In this document: one piece after another, positions 13,384 through 16,337 of the stretch
Position numbering within the stretch: position 1 is the stretch's first letter
How the letters are laid out: each line of letters opens with the position of its first letter
NCBI GenBank assembly: GCA_902579065.1
Contig: CACHFI010000006.1
Span: 1 to 45,024, forward strand
Direction of reading: 5' to 3'
DNA from: an uncultured Bacteroidota bacterium
GTDB taxonomy: Bacteria > Bacteroidota > Bacteroidia > Flavobacteriales > BACL11
DNA length: 45,024 bases
Position numbers and translations under genes: made by a program
Notes under the pieces: model-generated
Databases searched by the model: none
What the model was told of the DNA's origin: nothing
Seen by the model: the letters and a program-made list of their open reading frames with translations, nothing else

Positions 13384-15297
13384 TTATTTTTTTTCCTTTT
13401 CTAAATCATCCTTTAGAGCAGATAAACTATCAAGATCACCTAGAGTAGACTGCTGTTGAGATTCTTGAATCTGCTGAACAGCTTTCTTTGTCTTTGACGC
13501 TTTCTTTTTACTTTCTGCTATTAACTCATCCTTAAACGATGCTGTATGAGAAACAAGTACCTTTTTATTTTCTTTTGAAAATTCAATTACTTTAAACTTA
13601 AGTTTCTCATTAATTTTAGCAGAACTACCATCTGCTTTCTCAAGATGACGTTTTGGTGCAAATGCTTCAATATCGTCATTTAATAGTACCAATGAACCTT
13701 TATCATATTCCTCAGTAACATGACCTTCAAATTCACTTCCTAAAGCATAAACCTTTTCGTGCTTATCCCAAGGATTTTCTTCAATTTGTTTGTGACCAAG
13801 GCTTATTTTCCTATTTTCTTTATCTATATCTAAAACAATAACATCTAGACTTGAATCTACTTTAGTAAATTCAGCAGGATGTTTAATTTTCTTGTGCCAA
13901 GAGAGATCAGAGATATGTACTAAACCATCAACACCTTCTTCTAGCTCAACAAAAATTCCAAAATTTGTAAAGTTTCTAACCTTTACAGTTAGCTTAGAGT
14001 TTAATGGATATTTTGTTTCGATTTCTGCCCATGGGTCTGGCAACATTTGTTTAAGCCCTAGTGACATTTTTCTTTGTTCTCTATCTAAAGTTAAAATCTT
14101 TGCTTCAACATCATCACCTTTACTAAAGAAATCATTTGCACTTCTTAAGTGTGTTGACCATGACATTTCAGAAACATGTAATAAAGCTTCAACTCCAGCC
14201 TGTAATTCAACAAACACTCCGTAATCAGCAACTACTACTACTTTTCCTTTAACAACATCTCCCACTTGAAGTTTTTCATCCAAATCTTGCCATGGATGAG
14301 ATCCTAATTGCTTTAGACCTAGCTGAATTCTACTTTTACCTTCATCAAAATCAAGAATCACAACATTTATAGTCTCATCTAATGTTACAATTTCTTCTGG
14401 ATGAGAAACTCTACCCCAAGATAAATCAGTAATATGAATTAACCCATCAATACCTCCAAGATCAACAAAAACACCATATGATGTAATATTTTTAACTGTT
14501 CCTTCAATCACTTGTCCTTTCTCAAGTTTAGACATTATTTCTTTAGTTTGAACAGCAAGATCTGCTTCAATCAATGCCTTGTGTGAAACAACAACATTTC
14601 TAAATGATTCATTAACTTTTACAATCTTAAACTCCATTTTTCTACCGACATATTCATCATAGTCTCTTATTGGCTTAACATCAATTTGAGATCCAGGCAA
14701 GAAACATTCTATACCAAATACGTCAACAATCATACCACCTTTAGTTCTACTTTTAATTTGACCATTAACTATTTCACCTGTATCAAGAGCTACATTTACT
14801 TTTTCCCAAGCTCTTAAAACACGAGCTCTTCTATGAGATAATATTAATTGTCCATTTTTATCCTCTTGTTTTTCAACTAAAACCTCTACAGAATCCCCTA
14901 TTTTTAGATCTTCGTTATATTTAAATTCAGAACTTGATATTACACCGTCTGACTTAAAATTGATATCAACTATAACTTCTCTATCAGAAATAGCAACTAC
15001 AATACCATCAATAACTTGCTTAGATTCTACAACAGGAAGTGTTTCTGAATATGTGTTAATCAATTCAGCTCTTTCTTTATCAGAGTACACTTCATCTTTA
15101 AGAACAGAGTCCCAACTGAACTCTTCATGTTTTTCTTCTACTACTTCCTCAGCAACTGGAGCTTCTTCTACTACTTCCTCAGCAACTGGAGCTTCTTTTA
15201 CTTCTTTTGATTTTTTACTTGTTGATTTAGATGTTTTCTTTTTTGCAACTTTTGCAACATCTTTTTTTTTGGTTTTTTCTTCTTGTTTTTTTGACAT
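13384..15297 (-). CDS. rpsA: 30S ribosomal protein S1
   Basis: S1 binds mRNA on the small subunit and helps load mRNAs with weak ribosome binding sites. The 637-residue protein has six S1 domains. The first two are divergent (IDGIVVAISDREVIVDINF; VNGQIKSRTKGGMIVDVFG). Three are canonical (SYGVFVDLGGIDGLIHITDLSW; DYGVFVELQAGVEALLHVSEMSW; NFGIFVELEEGVDGLVHISDLSW) and the last is degenerate (FEGHVTEEYDKGSLVLL). An N-terminal extension of about 60 residues is rich in Lys, Ala and Glu and holds a perfect duplicated decapeptide. A Lys/Gln-rich C-terminal tail follows the last domain. It is monocistronic, with its own promoter, a leader of about 115 nt and a strong terminator. Confidence 0.97.
   Translation of the reverse strand: MSKKQEEKTKKKDVAKVAKKKTSKSTSKKSKEVKEAPVAEEVVEEAPVAEEVVEEKHEEFSWDSVLKDEVYSDKERAELINTYSETLPVVESKQVIDGIVVAISDREVIVDINFKSDGVISSSEFKYNEDLKIGDSVEVLVEKQEDKNGQLILSHRRARVLRAWEKVNVALDTGEIVNGQIKSRTKGGMIVDVFGIECFLPGSQIDVKPIRDYDEYVGRKMEFKIVKVNESFRNVVVSHKALIEADLAVQTKEIMSKLEKGQVIEGTVKNITSYGVFVDLGGIDGLIHITDLSWGRVSHPEEIVTLDETINVVILDFDEGKSRIQLGLKQLGSHPWQDLDEKLQVGDVVKGKVVVVADYGVFVELQAGVEALLHVSEMSWSTHLRSANDFFSKGDDVEAKILTLDREQRKMSLGLKQMLPDPWAEIETKYPLNSKLTVKVRNFTNFGIFVELEEGVDGLVHISDLSWHKKIKHPAEFTKVDSSLDVIVLDIDKENRKISLGHKQIEENPWDKHEKVYALGSEFEGHVTEEYDKGSLVLLNDDIEAFAPKRHLEKADGSSAKINEKLKFKVIEFSKENKKVLVSHTASFKDELIAESKKKASKTKKAVQQIQESQQQSTLGDLDSLSALKDDLEKEKK
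15135..15194 (-). repeat. Two perfect 30-nt tandem repeats inside rpsA
   Basis: Positions 15135-15164 and 15165-15194 are identical 30-base units. They encode the duplicated acidic segment APVAEEVVEE in the S1 N-terminal extension. Identical bases, including third codon positions, point to recent duplication or ongoing unit-number change. Confidence 0.9.
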
Positions 15298-15330
15298 TAC
15301 AAGAGGGGGTTTTGTATCTTCAATTTGTTA

Positions 15331-15396
15331 GTAAGATTTAAATGCAACAAATTTGAAAAGCTTTTAATATTTGTTTTATCAATCTAGTTATCTTAC
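15331..15396 (-). ncRNA. Candidate structured RNA element in the rpsA leader
   Basis: Within the leader, two nested perfect 7-bp complementary pairs are seen. The outer pair is GTAAGAT (15396-15390 on the minus strand) with ATCTTAC (15337-15331). The inner pair is AACAAAT (15375-15369) with ATTTGTT (15352-15346), closing over an AAAAGCTTTT self-complementary core. This is a plausible cis-regulatory fold, for example for S1 autoregulation. In AT-rich DNA such pairs can occur by chance and no comparative support is available here. Confidence 0.4.
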
Positions 15397-15419
15397 ATAT
15401 GCACCACTAAATTGGGCGG

Positions 15420-15427
15420 CAAATATA
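15420..15427 (-). promoter_or_regulatory. Promoter -7 element of rpsA
   Basis: Minus-strand TATATTTG (15427-15420) matches TAnnTTTG and predicts a transcript start near 15414, giving a leader of about 115 nt before the rpsA ATG at 15297. A 14-bp AT-only palindrome (15434-15447) lies where the -33 element would fall. Confidence 0.6.
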
Positions 15428-15452: not shown

Positions 15453-16337
15453 CTAGGAAATTTGCTTAATATGATCTGCTACTTCATCCATTAACCATCT
15501 TGGTGTTGAAGTTGCACCACAAATACCAACTGAGTTAGAGTTTTTAAACCAATTCTCATCAATTTCTTTTGTGTCTGAAACAAAATAAGATTGTTTGTTT
15601 TGCTCTTTACATGATAGAAATAACATTTTTCCATTCGAACTCTTTGTGCCACTAACAAAGACTATGACATCATTTTCACTAGCAAATGCTTTTAGCTGAG
15701 GTTCTCTACCAGAAACTTGTCTACATAAAGTGTCATGAACAACAAATTTTAAATCAACATCTTTGCCCAAATCAATTAATTCCTTTCTAATTTCATCTAC
15801 TATAATTTGAAAAGCTTTTGGACTCTTTGTTGTTTGAGAATAAATATAAATTGGTTTTTCAAAATCTATTTTGGAAATATCTTCTTTTGTAGTTACAATA
15901 ATTGCTTCTCCATTAGTTTGTCCAACTAAACCAGTTACTTCAGCATGTCCTTCTTTACCATAAATTATTACTTGTCCATCAATTTTTTTGATTGTTTCAT
16001 AGCCTTCTTTTATCTGATGTTGTAATTTTAAAACAACTGGGCATGAAGCATCCAATAATTCTATATTATTTTTTAATGCAGTTTCATAGGTTGATGGAGG
16101 TTCACCATGTGCTCTAATTAAGACTTTACAATCATTCAGTTCGCTTAAGCGTTTGTGATCTATGATTTCTAATCCTAAATTATTCAATCTATCAACTTCT
16201 CTATTGTTGTGAACTATATCTCCAAGACAATATAATTTGTTTTCTTCCTTTAAAATATTCTCTGCCATTTCAATGGCATATACAACTCCAAAACAAAAAC
16301 CTGACTTTGGATCTACAGTAATTTTAAGTTGTGACAT
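15453..16337 (-). CDS. ispH: 4-hydroxy-3-methylbut-2-enyl diphosphate reductase
   Basis: IspH performs the last step of the MEP isoprenoid pathway, reducing HMBPP to IPP and DMAPP with a [4Fe-4S] cluster. The 294-residue protein keeps the three cluster cysteines C15 (GFCFGV), C99 (DASCP) and C205 (HDTLC). It also keeps H43, H77, H131 and E133 (GHAEV) and the SQTT motif near 167-170. It overlaps the 3' end of cmk by 14 nt, so it is read from the same message. A use of the non-mevalonate pathway by this organism follows. It is the last gene of the lon-porQ-cmk-ispH run; no convincing terminator follows. Confidence 0.96.
   Translation of the reverse strand: MSQLKITVDPKSGFCFGVVYAIEMAENILKEENKLYCLGDIVHNNREVDRLNNLGLEIIDHKRLSELNDCKVLIRAHGEPPSTYETALKNNIELLDASCPVVLKLQHQIKEGYETIKKIDGQVIIYGKEGHAEVTGLVGQTNGEAIIVTTKEDISKIDFEKPIYIYSQTTKSPKAFQIIVDEIRKELIDLGKDVDLKFVVHDTLCRQVSGREPQLKAFASENDVIVFVSGTKSSNGKMLFLSCKEQNKQSYFVSDTKEIDENWFKNSNSVGICGATSTPRWLMDEVADHIKQIS

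Follow-up and report, generated by a model that had tools for sequence, protein, structure and literature searches.

The leader of rpsA in a 45,024-nucleotide stretch of DNA from an uncultured bacterium of the Flavobacteriales (contig CACHFI010000006.1; the whole stretch is called the window below) almost certainly forms a pseudoknot of four helices, as judged from the comparison of related sequences. This fold is kept by matched mutations across the order, and the leader therefore probably lets ribosomal protein S1 (bS1) control its own production. With a probability of about 60%, it is an autoregulatory cis-acting leader bound by S1 that belongs to a new structural class, a reading in which we infer both the binding and its effect. 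By kind, the element belongs to the ribosomal-protein leaders, and its structure is new to Rfam 15 and to the literature searched.

The coding sequence of rpsA occupies positions 13384..15297 on the minus strand (637 amino acids in the list of open reading frames, with the ATG at 15297-15295), and its product was assigned to “30S ribosomal protein S1” by NCBIfam NF004953 with 857.8 bits at a cut-off of 720. The genes pyrR and pyrB are located downstream of rpsA, ispH (15453-16337) and cmk on its upstream side. Given the orientation of rpsA, the leader must be read on the minus strand, to which all features described below belong. The sequence contains a promoter element, TATATTTG, at 15427-15420 that agrees with TAnnTTTG, which we take to be the −7 promoter motif of Bacteroidota, and 122 nt separate its end from the ATG of rpsA. 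Transcription presumably starts a few nucleotides downstream of TATATTTG, so that the first hairpin, P1, would be positioned at or next to the 5′ end of the mRNA. The window contains 31 open reading frames of at least 120 amino acids (counted on both strands from ATG, without a check that they are genes), and a TAnnTTTG element was present not more than 200 nt upstream of 14 of them. Twelve of these 14 elements were at a distance of 4 to 42 nt and two were farther away, at 122 nt for rpsA and at 162 nt for one other reading frame, which thus has the second long predicted leader of the window. The earlier note on this DNA had described a leader of about 115 nt among short ones, in agreement with these distances. 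In F. johnsoniae, the mean leader length of genes for which a promoter is probable is 33 nt according to the sections of PMC6847099 used here, which also discuss the promoters of this species.

Four helices cover the leader, the two hairpins P1 and P2 and two helices, a and b, that connect their loops. In the joint structure search, the 5′ strand of P1 (CAAUUUAGU) was placed at 15406..15414 and its 3′ strand (ACUAGAUUG) at 15380..15388. The loop between them carries the 5′ strands of helix a (GGUGCA, 15400..15405) and helix b (GUAAGAU, 15390..15396). An A/U-rich linker at 15360..15379, delimited by gap statistics and unpaired in the model, leads to P2, which is composed of UUUUCAA (15353..15359) and UUGAAGA (15317..15323). 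The loop of P2 contains the 3′ strands a′ (UGCAUU, 15341..15346) and b′ (AUCUUAC, 15331..15337). The nested fold contains a longer P2, in which UUUGUU/AACAAA is added past a 1-nt bulge; this lengthening would take one nucleotide away from a′. The last nucleotide of P2 is the first A of an AUACAAA box (15311..15317) that is conserved in the relatives and unpaired beyond this A. The whole element was delimited at 15310..15419 by the covariance model R1 with 82.9 bits, the window being one of the 14 seeds of this model. With the strand order a-b-a′-b′, the two loop-loop helices cross each other in the manner of an H-type pseudoknot. No nucleotide is common to the four helices, so that they can coexist in one fold, sterics apart.

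The earlier note had reported two perfect 7-bp complementarities for the leader. Both exist letter for letter in the sequence of the window. The pair 15390-15396 with 15331-15337 is exactly helix b of the conserved pseudoknot, whereas the pair 15369-15375 with 15346-15352 is not conserved. It is missing from the leaders of the three nearest relatives examined (L002 and L003 of the same genus, and L098). In a comparison of 63 leaders, this region scored −3.81 for complementarity to its own partner and −3.78 with swapped partners, 2241 of 5000 permutations being as good. The proposal of nested pairs around a self-complementary core therefore did not hold, as conservation is limited to the outer pair, which is in reality one of two loop-loop helices joining two hairpins that the earlier note did not name; a structured leader different from that of E. 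coli stood, with strong support from covariation. The observation behind that note is thus confirmed, on the minus strand, and its interpretation of the leader is partly supported.

The comparison was based on rpsA homologues obtained by protein search. They came from 60 related genomes, from a genome collection of which the best 80 loci were kept (mostly of uncultured Flavobacteriales and Bacteroidales), and from further searches of the order (matches in 131 of 138 genomes) and of the class (60 genomes), the upstream regions being taken from a subset. This yielded 41 + 20 + 66 = 127 leaders of Flavobacteriales, the last 66 picked by hand from the 131 genomes so as to spread over genera. Three leaders were dropped for N (L011, L117, L128) and twelve because no box was in the right place (L116, L129, L130, L157, L158, L161, L191-L196), of which L116 and L161 were excluded by the start-codon rule despite a nearby box. 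The remaining 112 leaders, 108 of them unique, all have the box by selection, because their 3′ ends were positioned by it. The leader start in the relatives was set by a TA..TT[TC]G element with looser fallbacks, and the start rule took an in-frame ATG other than the first in 6 of 41 cases (L022, L024, L034, L038, L048, L054). In all seven fetched genomes of 300-600 kb (L129, L191-L196), the box before rpsA was absent, as if control by the rpsA leader had been lost on genome reduction.

Measured in 100 leaders, P1 has a median of 7 bp and begins 4 nt (median; interquartile range 3-4) past the promoter element, the loop segments a and b have medians of 5 nt and 7 nt, the linker between the hairpins a median of 22 nt, and P2 a median of 6 bp. 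The distance between the end of P2 and the start of the AUACAA box has a median of 0 with an interquartile range of 0-0, in a search that allowed −6 to +1. Loop L1 spans the 7-bp helix b with a median of 3 nt and L3 the 5-bp helix a with a median of 4 nt in these 100 leaders, lengths that fit the geometry of an H-type pseudoknot. Crossing stems and short L1 and L3 were thus found as in this type; L2 is not absent or very short, being composed of the 3′ strand of P1, the linker and the 5′ strand of P2. The strand order and the loop ranges were imposed by the joint search, and the covariation of a with a′ described below provides the independent support for the crossing. The AUACAA box starts 19 nt (median) before the ATG and is followed by an A in 94 of 108 leaders. 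In the 41 non-redundant leaders of the group to which the window belongs, ATACAA is located near the start codon without exception, and a promoter-like element is found at a similar distance. Shine-Dalgarno (SD)-like 4-mers (GGAG, GAGG or AGGA at −18 to −4) occur in 2 of 106 leaders. Adenine is present at 59 of 110 positions −12/−13, which is no clear preference. A UUAAC-like element just 5′ of P2 was also noted: UAA[CUA] is present here in 93 of 100 leaders compared to a proportion of 0.70 in shuffles, and UUAA[AC]?C in 33 of 44 rpsA leaders of another type from outside the order compared to 0.30. In this A/U-rich background, these figures are only suggestive of a possible conserved single-stranded site.

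The minimum-energy nested fold of the minus-strand leader gave a z-score of −0.86, with 36 of 200 shuffles as good, and −0.80 with 39 of 200 when the start of the gene was included; folding of the plus strand gave no signal. A folding energy beyond that of dinucleotide shuffles, as the earlier note had in mind, is thus not a property of ordinary nested folding of this leader, and it is ordinary because the fold is a pseudoknot. This indicates that z-scores from nested energies can miss pseudoknotted elements such as the rpsA leader. When pseudoknots were allowed, the four-helix search reached −36.3 for the leader of the window, and none of 1000 shuffles was as good. Applied across the Flavobacteriales, the joint search found 104 of 112 leaders at or below 5% of the dinucleotide shuffles, with none of 200 shuffles as good in 85 of these, and 100 of the 108 unique leaders with a box passed at the same threshold. 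A pass is no proof of homology for every helix assigned (for instance, in L022 and L030). The limits of the joint search were fixed after the first alignments had been viewed and were applied equally to the shuffles. As a background of real DNA, 305 other ATACAA sites from the loci and the window were scored with a placement advantage, and a single one reached −36, compared to 59 of 108 leaders.

All leaders passed in eight families with at least two leaders each, namely, f2 (2/2), f3 (15/15), f6 (13/13), f7 (3/3), f8 (19/19), f9 (5/5), f10 (4/4), and f14 (2/2). In f1, with a label that was partly assumed, 36 of 40 passed, and in f15, f4, and f5, it was 3/4, 1/1, and 1/1, while the single leaders of f11, f12, and f13 did not pass the joint search. 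The eight failures among the 112 leaders were L018, L023, L024, L059, L118, L126, L127, and L137. In three of these, L018, L023, and L059, P1 was absent in the search and a, b, P2, and the box could nevertheless be traced by eye, which suggests that the pseudoknot and P2 are the core of the element.

Covariation in the rpsA leaders of the relatives, which the earlier note had proposed as a check and which settles the question in favor of a structured leader, was found for every helix, both by partner swaps and in pairs of an alignment. The partner swap tests if the pairing of a strand with its own partner exceeds that with the partner from another species. For 69 leaders with less than 80% identity, it gave z-scores of −10.2 for P1, −10.8 for P2, and −15.0 for loop 1 against loop 2, with 0 of 10000 swaps as good in each case. 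Helix a against a′ reached −8.9, again with 0/10000, in 67 leaders and windows that had been chosen without using a. The alternative of a nested double-kissing topology was rejected: the a window gave a z-score of +3.0 with the stretch 3′ of b′, meaning no pairing, and the crossing arrangement was better in 49 of 55 leaders. Swaps within families gave −5.6 to −10.3 and 0/10000 (61-62 leaders), with the family labels of L034-L062 and L098 assumed to be that of the family of the window.

The first MAFFT alignments slid CCUUA blocks between lineages and were excluded from the pair counts. Alignment A3 contains 14 leaders picked since MAFFT, which is blind to structure, kept most blocks in register; L013, L015, L017, and L020 are still off by about a column in P1 or a. 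In this alignment, 90.6% of the cells pair and 13 of 29 pairs vary on both sides, with at least two such pairs in each of the four helices. None of 500 shuffles reached any of five measures, and sliding of the partners decreased the paired cells to 36-53%. Because A3 is a favorable subset, the general claim rests on the partner-swap tests.

The element is associated with one ribosomal-protein gene in the 60 genomes to which the covariance model R1, built from P1 and P2 only with 14 seeds, was applied. Of 25 hits with E ≤ 0.034, some of them being the seeds, 24 were directly upstream of rpsA, and the remaining one was at a contig end in a genome (G021) without an rpsA match in the protein search. 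One of seven weaker hits (E between 0.1 and 0.9) was also located before rpsA (G054). The sensitivity of R1 is limited, with first-look candidates alone scored and 31 of the 60 genomes without a hit at E ≤ 1, among them several with leaders that passed the structure search (for instance, G038, G041, and G044).

At the gathering threshold, Rfam 15 had no match in the window and none in the loci of 20 relatives; at E ≤ 10, seven matches were obtained in the leader, all of them far below the gathering scores. No description of a Bacteroidota rpsA leader came up in full-text searches limited to the CC-licensed papers of PubMed Central, including portions of PMC2704228, PMC8040213, and PMC2864571. 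The leader shares with the rpsA leaders of E. coli and other gammaproteobacteria the gene, the absence of a canonical SD sequence, a structured RNA with A/U-rich single-stranded parts, and translational feedback as the proposed outcome. Three successive hairpins, as in E. coli, for which the consulted part of PMC4679880 mentions no pseudoknot, were not found; the leader of the Flavobacteriales has two hairpins, an H-type pseudoknot, and the AUACAA box instead. The leaders for L13, S4, S15, and S16 from Bacteroidia and Flavobacteria described by Eckert and Weinberg in 2020 (PMC7247131) are alike in lineage and general kind, but the table of that paper, as far as available, contains no S1 or rpsA motif, and the word “pseudoknot” is absent from the main text. 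The 5′ pseudoknot of the tisB +42 mRNA and the pseudoknot selected by SELEX are both bound by S1 (PMC7708055). In the tisB mRNA, the pseudoknot forms between a hairpin loop and a flanking segment, whereas strands from two hairpin loops pair here and the gene is rpsA. The rpsO (S15) leader of E. coli is likewise an autoregulatory ribosomal-protein leader with a pseudoknot. According to extracts of PMC3858243, S15 binds to this pseudoknot, which extends into the coding sequence, whereas the pseudoknot of rpsA is located before the start codon and terminates at the AUACAA box. Within the same order, the 30S protein bS21 (rpsU) of F. johnsoniae also regulates itself, in connection with the unusual initiation of this species, but its control differs by a strong SD sequence read by ribosomes without bS21 (passages of PMC9976891).

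The following events may be envisioned for the S1-bound autoregulatory leader. Free bS1 in excess over the 30S subunits would bind to the pseudoknot, the A/U-rich linker, and the box. On the leader, it would compete with the bS1 of the 30S subunits, on which the choice of the start site depends in these SD-poor bacteria. In the simplest mechanism, surplus bS1 on the leader and the box would block initiation and so repress its own translation. For H-type pseudoknots obtained by SELEX, the S1 protein of E. coli has a nanomolar affinity, and it also binds the pseudoknots of tmRNA, preQ1, and rpsO (PMC7708055); in addition, it melts the rpsO pseudoknot on the 30S subunit (extracts of PMC3858243). 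Autorepression of gammaproteobacterial bS1 is described as a competition between free and 30S-bound bS1 in passages of PMC10931766. A contact of Bacteroidota bS1 with the mRNA at −12 to −15 has been suggested (sections of PMC6847099), and the 3′ A residues of the AUACAA box, which starts at a median of −19, are thus near this suggested contact.

The main alternative uses the same parts: the pseudoknot and the A/U-rich linker may be a standby site or enhancer without feedback that catches S1-loaded 30S subunits for the SD-less rpsA mRNA. We consider this rather unlikely, although the 5′ pseudoknot of the tisB mRNA, together with a single-stranded region, recruits S1 and the 30S subunit in E. 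coli (PMC7708055) and comparable elements are present in the rpsA leader, with its SD-like 4-mers in just 2/106 cases. Genes of Bacteroidota generally have no SD sequence, according to the portions of PMC6847099 at hand, and a standby site would leave the confinement of the strong R1 hits to rpsA unexplained.

It is improbable, more so than the standby site, that the leader senses another ligand, either a different ribosomal protein, for example, uS2, the partner of S1, or a small molecule, with rpsA as a mere output. Pseudoknots are also common in riboswitches. In E. coli, uS2 acts together with bS1 as a repressor (as stated in parts of PMC10931766). Such a sensor should nevertheless occur at other genes too, whereas the strong hits of R1, within its limited sensitivity, were before rpsA alone, and no strictly conserved unpaired pocket outside of the AUACAA box was noticed on general inspection. 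Protection of the mRNA and nothing more, with the 5′-terminal hairpin and the pseudoknot shielding a highly expressed transcript from decay, has a very small probability: the position of P1, 4 nt (median; interquartile range 3-4) past the promoter element, would agree with such a role, but covariation in four helices and a P2 that ends on the box near the start codon exceed what stability needs, and other strongly expressed genes should share the element, at which no strong R1 hit appeared. Chance complementarity in an A/T-rich leader, which would fit the ordinary nested folding energy and the non-conserved second pair, is refuted by the covariation, with the shuffles and the background of real DNA also against it, and deserves practically no credence.

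In Bacteroidota, bS1 is suspected of a role in start-codon choice and in the balance of ribosomal proteins without SD pairing (PMC6847099, in the sections used). With a pseudoknotted leader, kept by compensatory changes, before the bS1 gene, the question of bS1 becomes directly testable in Flavobacterium johnsoniae, from which bS1 has been purified and for which gfp reporters exist, a test of the rpsA mRNA not being reported in the parts of PMC9976891 used here. The pseudoknots selected by S1 in vitro would also have a natural counterpart in this leader.

A wider reading, held tentatively and at somewhat less than even odds, assumes an ancestral bS1-sensing leader in Bacteroidia, composed of two hairpins connected by crossing helices between their loops and of a UACAA box. 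The full four-helix form would be the version of the Flavobacteriales, and the different rpsA leaders found in other orders would have diverged from the same element. If so, a group of bacteria that does not rely on SD pairing would gauge its free bS1 by means of this leader, with the UACAA box near the presumed contact of bS1 with the mRNA upstream of the start codon. Outside of the order but inside the class, 40 leaders were taken from 58 genomes, and box plus promoter were found in 17 of them. A simpler form, P1 with one loop-loop helix and P2, was at or below 5% of the shuffles in 13 of these 17 leaders, that is, in 13 of 40. With crude windows, the swap of loop partners in the class sample gave z-scores of only −0.7 (17 leaders) and −1.8 (28 leaders); the value of −4.3 obtained after the windows had been changed is weaker than the number suggests, because this change followed the null result of the first test.

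Another 44 rpsA leaders, mostly of Bacteroidales, were of a different type, and 30 of them have no TACAA box. Of the box-bearing leaders of this type, 8 of 14 fit one relaxed model and 3 of 13 the model of the class sample. These other-type leaders contain further structured types. In seven Bacteroidota rpsA leaders (L072, L075, L084, L097, L103, L108, L109), a different pseudoknot seems to be present, as judged by eye: a CCAUUUU/AAAUGG-like hairpin has a loop, such as UCCGGGGU, with complementarity to a AAAUCCCCGGA-like stretch farther downstream, which is followed by UUAAACCCGG and often then by a GC-rich hairpin.
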